Positions 622-4,947 of a stretch of DNA of 50,172 nt are shown piece by piece. The stretch covers positions 1-50,172 of the forward strand of contig CALQIY020000003.1 of the NCBI GenBank assembly GCA_943330755.2, in the 5' to 3' direction. Position 1 is the stretch's first letter; each line of letters opens with the position of its first letter. Under the pieces are notes generated by a model, which worked only from the letters and a program-made list of their open reading frames with translations, made no database searches and was not told the origin of the DNA. The position numbers and the translations under genes are program-made. The DNA is from Opitutus sp. GAS368 (GTDB taxonomy: Bacteria; Verrucomicrobiota; Verrucomicrobiia; Opitutales; UBA953).

Positions 622-1527
622 TCAGCCCCGCCACACGCGGAGCAGGGCGTCAGCCATGTCCGAGGGGGTTTCGGCGACCGAGATGCCGCACTCGCGGAAG
701 ATCTTGATCTTGGCTTCGGCCGTGTCTTCGGCGCCACCGATGACGGCACCGGCGTGGCCCATGCGGCGACCAGCGGGAGCCGTGGCGCCGGCGATGAAGC
801 CAGCGACCGGCTTCTTGCAGTTCGCCTTGATCCAGCGGGCGGCTTCGACCTCGGCGTTGCCGCCGATTTCACCGATCATGATGATGGCTTCGGTTTCCGG
901 GTCATCGTTGAAGAGTTTGATGACGTCGAGGTGGGACGTGCCATTGACGGGGTCGCCGCCGATGCCGACGCAGGTCGACTGGCCGTGGCCCTTGCAGGTC
1001 AGTTGCCAGACGGCTTCGTAGGTCAAGGTGCCGGAGCGGGAGACGACGCCGACCTTGCCGCGCTTGTGGATGTAACCGGGGGCGATGCCGATGCGGCAAC
1101 CGCCGTGCGACTTGTCGCCGCGACCAGGGGTGACGAGGCCCGGGCAGTTCGGCCCGATGAGGCGGGTCCGCTTGCCCTGCATGGCGCGCTTGGCGCGGAC
1201 CATGTCGCGGACCGGGATGCCTTCGGTGATGGCCACCGCGAGGTCGAGGTCGGCCTCGACGCACTCGAGGATCGCATCGGCCGCGAAGGGCGGGGGGACG
1301 AAGATGGCGGACACCGTGGCGCCCGTCTGCTTGGCGGCGTCGGCCACCGTGTTGAAGATGGGAACCTTGACGCCGTTGTGTTCGAACGTCTGGCCGCCCT
1401 TGCCGGGGGTGACGCCGGCGACGACTTGGGTGCCGTAGTCGATGGAGAGACGGGCGTGGCGGGCACCGAAGTCGCCGGTGATGCCTTGGACCAGGATGCG
1501 GGTCTTTTCGTGGACGAGAATGGACAT
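622..1527 (-). CDS. sucD: Succinyl-CoA synthetase (ADP-forming) alpha subunit
   Basis: A 301-residue alpha subunit of succinate-CoA ligase, which with SucC interconverts succinyl-CoA and succinate with nucleotide triphosphate formation in the TCA cycle. The N-terminal CoA-binding Rossmann domain contains [11 protein letters not shown]. The active-site histidine that is transiently phosphorylated is His258 in [28 protein letters not shown] (about 158-173) and [10 protein letters not shown] are family signatures. Compared with the usual sequence at the segment joining the two domains, there is an extra RGDKSHGG-like stretch around residues 136-143. It lies 19 bases downstream of sucC and is the last gene before a strong terminator. 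No Shine-Dalgarno precedes the ATG (ctttcac). Confidence 0.97.
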
Positions 1528-1546
1528 GTGAAAGGAAGGGCTGGGG

Positions 1547-2758
1547 TTACTTGTTGTTGACGAGCTTCACGATCTTCTGGGCCGCGTCGGCCATCGTGTC
1601 GCCCGAGACGATCGTCAGGCCGCTGGCGGCCAAGGTGGCCTTGCCGGCTTCGACGTTGTTGCCTTCGAGGCGAACCACGAGGGGGAGCTTGAGGCCCGTT
1701 TCCTTGACGGCTTCCACGATGCCCGTCGCGATGACGTTGCAGTCCATGATGCCGCCGAAGATGTTGACCATGATGCCCTTCACATTGGGGTCGCCGAGGA
1801 TGATCTTAAAGGCCGCCGTGACTTGGTCCTTGGTCGCGCCGCCGCCGACGTCGAGGAAGTTCGCGGGGCTGCCGCCGAAGTGCTGGATGATGTCCATGGT
1901 GGACATCGCGAGGCCGGCGCCGTTGACGAGACAGGCGATGTTGCCGTCGAGGGCGATGTAGGAGAGGCCGAACTTCGAGGCTTCGATTTCCTTGGCGTCT
2001 TCCTCGTTGAGGTCGCGCAGGGCGACGACGTCGGGGTGACGGAAGAGCGCGTTGTCGTCGAAGGAGACCTTGGCGTCGAGCGCGAGGAGCTTGCCCTCGG
2101 CGGTCACGAGGAGGGGGTTGACCTCGACCATGGCGCAATCCTTTTCCCAGTAGAACTGGTAGAGCTTGGTGACGAGCGTCACGCACTGCTTGAAGAGCTC
2201 ACCGGTGAAGCCGAGGCTGAAGGCGATCTGGCGGGCCTGGAAGGCCTGCAGGCCAACGGCCGGGTCGACGTGCACCTTGAAGATCTTCTCCGGCGTCGCG
2301 TGGGCGACGTGTTCGATCTCCATGCCGCCTTCCGTCGAGGCGACGATGACCGGCTTCGAGGTCGCGCGGTCGAGGAGGATGGCGAGGTAGTACTCGTCGT
2401 CGCGGCCGTCGGGGCGCTTGCCGAGGTTCGCGGCTTCGGTGAAGTAGATGGTTTGGACCTTGCGGCCGGCCTCGCCCGTCTGGGCGGTCACGAGCGTGTT
2501 GCCGAGCATCGCCTGGGCGTTCTCGATGGCCTTTTCCTTGGTGGGCGAGAACTTCACGCCGCCCTTGAAGCCGTTGGTGAAGGTGCCCTTGCCGCGGCCG
2601 CCCGCGTGGATCTGGGACTTCACCATGATGCCGCCCGCGGTATTGAGCTGGGCGATGGCCGCGTCGAATTCGGCGACGGACGACACCGCGACGCCCTTCG
2701 GCACCGCGACGCCGAACTTCTCGAAGAGTTGCTTGGCCTGGTATTCGTGAATGTTCAT
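1547..2758 (-). CDS. sucC: Succinyl-CoA synthetase (ADP-forming) beta subunit
   Basis: A 403-residue ATP-grasp beta subunit, slightly longer than the E. coli enzyme. It starts with the conserved [12 protein letters not shown]. The nucleotide-binding segment [13 protein letters not shown] is at about 47-59, followed by the metal-binding VEVNPL. The C-terminal ligase-CoA domain carries [30 protein letters not shown] and VRLEGNN, all typical. It binds nucleotide and succinate and pairs with SucD, encoded 19 bases downstream. The upstream neighbour frr is 34 bases away on the same strand, so sucCD appear to be transcribed with pyrH-frr. Signatures cover the full length and there is no sign of disruption. 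Confidence 0.97.
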
Positions 2759-2792
2759 GAAAGGGGAAGGTCGGGCAGGGGCGCGTCAGGGC

Positions 2793-3356
2793 TTAGCCCT
2801 TCAGTTCGGCGTCCTTCTTCTTGAGGTGCGCTTCGATGTCGGCGATCGCCTTGTCGGTGTTCGTCTGGATGTCCTTTTCGGAGCGCTTCAATTCATCGTC
2901 GGTGACGAGCTTTTCCTTGTTGGCCTTCTTGAGGACTTCGAGGACGTCGCGGCGGGCGTTGCGGACGCGCACCTTGCCTTCTTCCGCGAGCTGGGTCGCC
3001 TTCTTGGCGAGCTCGAGGCGGCGTTCGCCGGAGAGGGTGGGGACGGGGCAACGGAGGAAGCTGCCCTGGGAGACGGGGTTGATGCCGATGTTGGCGGCCA
3101 GGATGGCCTTGCGGATGTCGTCGATGGCGGCCTTGTCGAACGGCTGGACGACGATGGACTGGGCGTCGGGCGTGGTGATCGCGGACATGTCCTTGAGGCG
3201 CTGGGTCATGCCATAGGCCTCGATGTGGACTTGGATGTTCTCAACCATCATGGGCGAGGCCTTGCCGGTGTGAAGCGTGCTGAATTCGTGTTGGGTCCAA
3301 TCGACGGCCTTCTTCATGTGGGCGGCGCCGTCGGCGATGATGCGTTTGATGTCCAT
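2793..3356 (-). CDS. frr: Ribosome recycling factor
   Basis: A 187-residue protein of normal RRF length. It acts after termination to split the 70S ribosome together with EF-G. Conserved RRF segments in order: LHTGKASPMMVENI (about 28-41), TTPDAQSIVVQPFDKAAI, NIGINPVSQGSFLRCPVP and GERRLELAKKATQLAEE. The C-terminal long helix contains VRNARRD. It sits between pyrH (35 bases upstream) and sucC (34 bases downstream), all minus strand. The pyrH-frr pair is conserved across bacteria; linkage to sucCD is less usual. No Shine-Dalgarno is present before the ATG (catcccc). Confidence 0.97.
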   Translation of the reverse strand: MDIKRIIADGAAHMKKAVDWTQHEFSTLHTGKASPMMVENIQVHIEAYGMTQRLKDMSAITTPDAQSIVVQPFDKAAIDDIRKAILAANIGINPVSQGSFLRCPVPTLSGERRLELAKKATQLAEEGKVRVRNARRDVLEVLKKANKEKLVTDDELKRSEKDIQTNTDKAIADIEAHLKKKDAELKG

Positions 3357-3391
3357 GGGGATGTTGTTTTAGTTGTGTGTAAGGGGGATGG

Positions 3392-4126
3392 TTAGGCGAC
3401 GAGCGTGCCGATGGGCTGGCCGAGCACCGCTTTGCGGACCGCGCCTTTCTCGGCCATCGAGAAGACGATGATGGGGAGTTTGTTGGCTTCGCAGAGCGAG
3501 AAGGCCTCGGCATCCATCACGCCCAGGCGCTTGGTGAGGGCCTCGGCGTGCGAGACCTTCTTGTAGCGCTTGGCGTCCTTGTGCTTCATCGGGTCCTTGT
3601 CGTACACGCCGTCGACCTTGGTGGCCTTGAGGATGGCGTCGGCGCCGATCTCGTTCGCGCGCAGGGCCGCGGCGTAGTCGGTCGTGCAGTAGGGGTTACC
3701 CGTGCCGGCGACGAAGATGACGATGCGACCGCGCGAGAGGTGACGGGTGGCGCGACGCTGGATGAACGGTTCGGCGATGCGGTCCATCGGGATGGCGGTC
3801 ATGACGCGGACTTCGAGGCCGGCCTTCTCGAGGCGGTCCATGAGGGCGAGGCCGTTGATGACCGTGGAGAGCATGCCCATGTTGTCGCCCGTGGTGCGGT
3901 CGGTGCCGTTGGCGCGGGCGCCCGCGAGGCCGCGGAAGATGTTGCCGCCACCGACCACCACCGCGACCTGGGCGCCCAGGGAACGGATGGATTTGAGCTC
4001 CTCGGCCAAGCGGTCGAGGACGTCGCTGTCGATGGATTGGCCGGTTTCGTCGTTCCGGAGGGCCTCACCGCTGATCTTCAGGACGATACGGCGATACTTC
4101 GGCTTTACGGAGGAAGTAGTAGGCAT
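3392..4126 (-). CDS. pyrH: Uridylate kinase (UMP kinase)
   Basis: A 244-residue hexameric bacterial UMP kinase of the amino-acid-kinase fold, converting UMP to UDP in pyrimidine synthesis. Visible motifs are LKISGEAL near the N-terminus (phosphate-binding lysine), VVVGGGNIFRG (glycine-rich loop), MGMLSTVING, and GTGNPYCTTDYAAALRA (UMP and allosteric region). KATKVDGVYDKDP is the usual acceptor-site segment. It is the first gene of the apparent pyrH-frr-sucC-sucD operon. In many bacteria pyrH follows rpsB-tsf; here rpsB-tsf lie 36 kb away on the other strand. The leader before the ATG has no Shine-Dalgarno. Confidence 0.97.
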   Translation of the reverse strand: MPTTSSVKPKYRRIVLKISGEALRNDETGQSIDSDVLDRLAEELKSIRSLGAQVAVVVGGGNIFRGLAGARANGTDRTTGDNMGMLSTVINGLALMDRLEKAGLEVRVMTAIPMDRIAEPFIQRRATRHLSRGRIVIFVAGTGNPYCTTDYAAALRANEIGADAILKATKVDGVYDKDPMKHKDAKRYKKVSHAEALTKRLGVMDAEAFSLCEANKLPIIVFSMAEKGAVRKAVLGQPIGTLVA

Positions 4127-4217: not shown

Positions 4218-4288
4218 AGTCCGATGGTGTAATGGTAGCACAGGAGATTTTGGTTCTCCTTGTCTAGGTTCGAATCCTAGTCGGACTA
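4218..4288 (+). tRNA. trnQ: tRNA-Gln, anticodon TTG
   Basis: A complete 71-base cloverleaf. The acceptor stem AGTCCGA (4218-4224) pairs fully with TCGGACT (4281-4287), with discriminator A. The D stem is GTGT/GCAC with loop AATGGTA. The anticodon stem GGAGA/TCTCC encloses loop TTTTGGT, giving anticodon TTG (reads CAA and probably CAG). The T stem CTAGG/CCTAG has loop TTCGAAT. The 3' CCA is not encoded. It stands alone on the plus strand between two minus-strand genes, pyrH and efp. Confidence 0.97.
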
Positions 4289-4383: not shown

Positions 4384-4947
4384 TTAGGCGCGACCGAGGT
4401 ATTCCTTGTTCTCGGTGCTGACCTTGATCTTCTCGCCCTGCTTGATGAAGAGCGGGACGTTGACCTGGAGGCCGTTTTCGCAGGTGACCGTCTTTTGGAC
4501 GTTGCCGGCGGTGTCGCCCTTGACGGCGGGCGGGGCTTCGAGGACTTCGACGGTGACGGAAGGGGGGAGGTCGACGGTGATGGGCTTGTCTTCAACGAAG
4601 AGGACCATGTAGGAGGTGCCCGAAACCAGGAACTCCTTGGAGTCGGCGAGCGAAGCGGCCGAGATGTAGAATTCCTCGTTGGTGTTGGTGTCGACGAAGA
4701 CGTAGCTGCCGTCGGCTTCGTAGGACATCTCGAGGGACTTGATGGAGTTGTCGAAGACGTCGAAGCTGACGCCGATGCCGCAACGCACGGGGATCTTGGC
4801 GCCGGTCTTGATGGAGCGGAGTTCCATCTGGACGTAGGAGGCGTTGTTCGGGGGGGTGCGGACGAGACACTCGAGAACGATGCAGAGCTCGCCGTTGTAG
4901 CTCATGATGTTCTTCTTCTTGATGCGATTGACGGGAAGGGAAGCCAT
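4384..4947 (-). CDS. efp: Elongation factor P (variant with PPNN loop)
   Basis: A 187-residue three-domain EF-P, the factor that binds next to the P-site tRNA and relieves ribosome stalling at polyproline. Domain I (1-65) contains the tip loop; domains II and III show LPPSVTVEVLEAP, VKGDTAGNVQK and VPLFIKQGEKIKVST, all standard. The loop that in E. coli reads PGKGQ, with the modified Lys34, here reads P32-P33-N34-N35-A36, so the usual Lys or Arg is replaced by Asn. YeiP/EfpL-type paralogues carry a different loop, and the overall length and domain III motifs are those of EF-P proper. No EF-P modification enzyme is encoded in the window. The ATG is followed by a strong downstream terminator, so the gene appears monocistronic. 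Confidence 0.93.
   Translation of the reverse strand: MASLPVNRIKKKNIMSYNGELCIVLECLVRTPPNNASYVQMELRSIKTGAKIPVRCGIGVSFDVFDNSIKSLEMSYEADGSYVFVDTNTNEEFYISAASLADSKEFLVSGTSYMVLFVEDKPITVDLPPSVTVEVLEAPPAVKGDTAGNVQKTVTCENGLQVNVPLFIKQGEKIKVSTENKEYLGRA

Follow-up and report, generated by a model that had tools for sequence, protein, structure and literature searches.

In the textbook picture, elongation factor P (EF-P) needs a basic, usually modified residue at the tip of its loop. A subfamily of actinobacterial EF-Ps, with the loop PGKGP, has Lys at this tip. Two EF-P types act unmodified, one by means of a stiffer loop and the other by means of a longer one (PMC11611912), and the actinobacterial subfamily, whose loop is stiffened, is described as working unmodified in the account of Pinheiro 2020 given in PMC11611912. 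For the E. coli factor, Volkwein et al. 2019 (PMC6544042) give K34N as inactive and G33A and G33S as not tolerated; neither the E. coli nor the P. putida factor functions without Gly33. The same paper reports Asn-type EF-Ps, which make up 2.23% of 1166 EF-Ps and all carry P32; they are counted there, no function being given in the sections consulted, and Asn tips are mentioned again in PMC11611912. A functional study of an Asn-tipped EF-P was not found in the literature searched, which left most subscription journals outside its scope; within the same scope, no description was found of a class-wide Asn tip accompanied by EpmA loss, or of Pro33 loops.

The window analyzed here is a stretch of 50,172 nucleotides from Opitutus sp. 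GAS368 (phylum Verrucomicrobiota, order Opitutales; contig CALQIY020000003.1). The host is a freshwater bacterium. The EF-P encoded in the window shares Asn34 and P32, the two residues by which the Asn type is defined (PMC6544042), with the proteins counted by Volkwein et al., but differs from the common Asn loop, TPGNLRA, in having Pro33 instead of Gly33.

The efp gene and its product

The efp gene is located on the minus strand at positions 4384..4947, as an open reading frame of 187 aa, and is the sole EF-P match in its own genome (G000). The KOW-like, OB and C-terminal OB domains (PF08207, PF01132 and PF09285) all score above the Pfam cut-off. The product also exceeds the cut-off of the EF-P subfamily model NF001810 (167.1 bits, cut-off 161), but falls below that of the EF-P equivalog model TIGR00038 (163.9 bits, cut-off 185.8). 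Its AlphaFold model (mean pLDDT 86) shows the EF-P fold, the top TM-score, 0.84, being obtained with C. glutamicum EF-P (6S8Z). The actinobacterial EF-Ps, to which this best fold match belongs, are also alike in their proline-rich loop, and need no modification according to the cited account; they differ in phylum and in their Lys tip.

The G144-D145-T146 motif in loop I of domain III (4510..4518, minus strand), which in E. coli EF-P contacts and reads the E-site codon (PMC11611912), is retained in the alignments, and the C-terminal residues Y183 and R186 (4390..4401, minus strand) are invariant across 37 aligned EF-Ps. These residues are shared with the EpmA-modified E. coli EF-P, to which the window protein can be aligned without gaps through the loop; the differences are the missing Lys tip and Gly33, and no EpmA reached its cut-off in the class genomes searched. 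The sequence-only reading had described the protein, apart from its loop, as a normal EF-P. This description is too strong for a protein that misses the equivalog cut-off, though passing the NF001810 model, and is only about 32-46% identical to EF-Ps from other families of the same order.

A mis-called EfpL (YeiP) was ruled out by scores, loop length and the GDT motif. Among solved structures, the one closest in phmmer score (76 bits) is indeed an EfpL, PDB 8S8U, and the EfpL tip is unmodified; however, the loop of EfpL is longer and has Arg at its tip, whereas the window protein has a loop of seven residues with no extension, keeps GDT and scores far below the cut-offs of the EfpL models (104.5 bits against 216, and 88.7 bits against 264.05).

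The beta3-omega-beta4 loop spans residues 31-37 (T-P-P-N-N-A-S; 4837..4857, minus strand), between predicted strands 20-30 and 38-45, and in the predicted structure is equal in length to residues 31-37 of the E. coli factor. P32-P33-N34-N35 occupies positions 4843..4854 of the minus strand, the codons being CCC for P32 (4852-4854), CCG for P33 (4849-4851), AAC for N34 (4846-4848), AAC for N35 (4843-4845) and GCC for A36 (4840-4842). The codon table and the gap-free pairwise alignment with E. coli EF-P, in which N34 stands opposite K34 and P33 takes the place of Gly33, bear out the loop tip originally read from the sequence, P32-P33-N34-N35-A36 (4854-4840). Within window positions 4837-4848, N35-A36-S37 forms an N-X-S sequon; relatives with PPNL loops carry N34-L35-T36.

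Residues R30-T31-P32-P33-N34-N35-A36-S37-Y38 are invariant across the lineage, from which 48 distinct coding sequences were compared; silent codon changes are found among these at each of P32, P33, N34 and N35, and the median pairwise dN/dS of efp is 0.077. An invariant loop combined with silent changes shows that the gene is neither decayed nor misread in sequencing, and on the same grounds a chance or frameshift origin of PPNN was excluded. The relatives with the same loop show 83-99% protein identity; their records are labelled Opitutae, Opitutales, UBA953, UBA957 and the like, and several are named after lakes. A second efp with a canonical tip, on whose absence the sequence-only reading depended, was found neither in the own genome of the window (an 81% complete assembly) nor in the near-complete relatives G137, G018, G184 and G210, which have one efp each, and the coexistence of a canonical copy with the PPNN copy was discarded. 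In three other genomes (G131, G181 and G570, 93-99% complete) no match to the EF-P N-terminal domain was obtained, reflecting either assembly gaps or real loss.

Downstream of efp, also on the minus strand (622..4126), lie pyrH and frr, both recognized by Pfam, followed by two genes which, from our own reading of the open reading frames, we take to be sucC and sucD. The order efp-pyrH-frr-sucCD is kept in the genus and is the same in most PPNN loci. No candidate modification gene was found beside efp in the PPNN loci examined; a modification gene within the efp operon was considered and rejected, as there is none among pyrH, frr, sucC and sucD in these loci. A tRNA-Gln gene (TTG) is located on the plus strand, at 4218-4288, where it separates the minus-strand genes efp and pyrH.

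Loop types and modification enzymes in the class and phylum

In one genome from each of 57 additional families of the window's class, the loop reads TPGN(L/K)RA in 53 cases; in the other four families it is TPGKGNA (two families), TPPRMAS (one) or TPPKTRA (one). PGKG loops are found in genomes of other classes of the phylum, with few exceptions inside the window's class. In this phylum-wide survey of EF-P loops, a comparison of the kind that had been proposed as a check, Asn prevails at the tip throughout most of the window's class. The Asn tip, earlier singled out as the anomaly of this protein, is certainly present, but being the commonest tip in the class is not an oddity of one genome. Since it is so prevalent, what sets the window protein apart is Pro33: judging from the aligned loops, the rarer feature, passed over by the sequence-only reading, is the Pro in place of a near-universal Gly33, also seen in PPRM, PPNL and PPKT relatives.

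Within the order, TQGRQAG, with an Arg tip, is found in many families, TPGNLRA in one, and TPPNNAS in the window's family, where it occurs in three genera. TPPNLTS is found in two genera of a neighbouring family. Two further families, f18 and f22, have T/CPPRMAS loops. An Arg-to-Asn change within the order, starting from the TQGRQAG neighbours, was considered and abandoned, because TPGNLRA is the common type of the class. A search with a loose DNA pattern for RTPPN was uninformative: dispersed matches appeared in most of the class genomes, about as often as with a reversed-pattern control.

In order to follow the history of the loop, EF-P trees were computed with the loop columns left out. All PPN proteins form one clade (100/99) and all PPR proteins another (100/100). 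The PPN clade, reached through a long branch (0.45, then 0.63 changes per site), adjoins, at moderate support values of 90/79 and 86/70, EF-Ps of its own order that also have an Asn tip. Read most simply, these trees suggest that the PPN proteins took over Asn34 from the type found class-wide, and that the replacement of Gly33 by Pro followed later. PPN and PPR proteins are separated in the careful trees, but their union in a single clade is not rejected by the AU test (p 0.276, or 0.768 in a quicker tree), and Pro33 may have arisen once or twice.

EpmA (TIGR00462) was above cut-off in none of 41 genomes of the window's class, where the best matches to the model are mostly longer proteins (about 480-740 aa), as fits lysyl-tRNA synthetase; it was above cut-off in 10 of the 11 PGKG genomes from other classes of the phylum, usually directly downstream of efp. 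EarP (PF10093) was not detected in any of 38 relatives or of 249 genomes of the phylum. The same model matched 8 of 60 Pseudomonadota genomes at E < 1e-100, which makes its absence from the phylum meaningful. The window protein thus differs from the EpmA-dependent lysine type (Lys34 in PGKG, together with EpmA) and, having both Asn34 and P32, from the EarP-dependent arginine type, defined by an Arg tip, no P32 and the presence of EarP. YmfI, which produces the 5-aminopentanol form of a lysine-type EF-P, acts on Lys and is left without a substrate on Asn34. The earlier statement that the systems modifying Lys or Arg could not act on this tip therefore holds. As far as EpmA and EarP are concerned, with EpmB and YmfI left out of the comparison, the TQGR and in-class PGKG types likewise lack the enzymes that normally serve Lys and Arg tips.

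A proposed mode of action and its alternatives

The PPNN protein is probably, with a likelihood that we put at roughly 0.6 on the basis of the comparisons described, a genuine and functional EF-P of a lineage without a modified Lys or Arg tip, and most likely works without the known tip modifications. In the class ancestor, a Lys tip served by EpmA would have been replaced by the Asn-tipped loop TPGNLRA, and in the window's family, and in part of the neighbouring one, a loop of this type would have become TPPNN or TPPNL. The conserved KOW and OB domains of the factor, together with its GDT motif, would mediate binding to the ribosome between the P and E sites. Its short loop would owe its stiffness to two prolines, and would keep Asn34, Asn35 and its own backbone in place at the CCA end of tRNA-Pro in the P site. 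Offered amide side chains and backbone by such a rigid loop, the CCA end might not need a long modified side chain. As the PPNN loop has two prolines but no extra length, of the two described ways of acting unmodified stiffness fits best; we infer the relief of stalling, the unmodified action and loop stiffness as its reason. The effects of K34N, G33A and G33S in E. coli speak against this reading, in that the PPNN loop would be expected to fail in a lysine-type background and to need compensating changes.

In a lineage whose EF-P had stopped working, polyproline motifs would be expected to fade. PPP usage was estimated from a 400 kb sample of each genome, with simple ORF calling, and expectations were obtained by shuffling; the figures are rough because of the way ORFs were called. 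In G137, a 99% complete genome with a PPNN loop, the estimate, which covers 17% of one genome, was 0.31 PPP per 1000 residues (observed/expected 1.39), or 0.23 (1.07) when ORFs of at least 300 aa were used. The equally rough values were 0.25 (1.61) for a genome with PGKG and EpmA, 0.42 (1.81) for a PGNL genome, 0.12 (0.94) for a TQGR genome and 0.17 (0.98) for a PPRM genome. PPP is therefore not depleted in G137, and the IPPPNVTG motif of ValS is retained in G000 and in every relative examined. This makes it unlikely that the polyproline role was lost or narrowed, with EF-P retained for some other task and the rescue left to Uup-type ABCF proteins or relatives of YebC. Such a change would agree with the long branch leading to the PPN clade and with the inactivation of E. 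coli EF-P by K34N and by Gly33 changes (PMC6544042). It would also agree with the presence in G137 of a Uup-like ABCF protein (699 bits, below the curated Uup equivalog cut-off of 900, the general ABC-F cut-off being passed), a possible partial backup for EF-P, as in E. coli; but Uup is also found in E. coli, which still uses EF-P (PMC11611912), and the window protein has kept the motif for the E-site codon.

The loop might instead be activated by a novel modification of Asn34 or Asn35, such as N-glycosylation or hydroxylation, the enzyme for which would have its gene away from the efp locus. The three well-studied EF-P tip systems all modify the tip residue, N34 and N35 never vary among the 48 coding sequences, and the N-X-S sequon, replaced by N-X-T in PPNL relatives, is a weak hint in the same direction; nevertheless, we hold this to be improbable, since a single loop with a sequon says little, TPGNLRA, the loop found across the class, has none, and no modification-like gene flanks efp in PPNN loci. 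That an undiscovered enzyme activates the Asn of the whole class, PPNN included, which would amount to a fourth EF-P tip chemistry in most of the class, seems quite improbable. A further proposal is that R30, at the base of the loop, replaces the basic tip by reaching the tRNA backbone. Position 30 is Arg or Lys in every loop type seen in the class (HRTPGN, HRTQGR, VRTPPN, IRTPPN, LKTPPR and HKCPPR), the E. coli factor having V30 and K31 instead, but in the predicted model R30 belongs to a strand at the loop base, far from the tip, and we consider this role very doubtful; it is also compatible with a stiff, unmodified PPNN loop and hard to separate from it.

Most of the class is devoid of the Lys tip, EpmA and EarP, yet retains an Asn-tipped EF-P, under strong purifying selection in the lineage where this was measured, and one branch has dispensed even with Gly33, thought to be essential, although PPP is still present in its proteomes. 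A large bacterial group thus seems to run EF-P without known modification. The loops found in related genomes (PGKG, PGNL, PPNL, PPNN, PPRM and TQGR) constitute a natural set with which the requirements at the tip, and rescue without a modified side chain, can be probed.

Other unusual loops were observed along with these. Lys tips occur inside the class as TPGKGQP, TPGKGNA and TPPKTRA (G258, locus L143; G272, locus L161; and loci L397, L399 and L387); in G258 and G272 there is no EpmA above cut-off, and the Lys is possibly unmodified or otherwise modified. One locus of 8.8 kb (L083) contains two EF-P genes on opposite strands, with loops TQGRQAG and TPGRRLG. A second EF-P-like gene, with the loop GTAQT(R/K)xK and a domain III without GDT, was seen at L211 (G044), L401 (family f80) and L403 (family f97), in each case sharing the genome with a TPGNLR-tipped EF-P, and is possibly an EfpL-type paralog.
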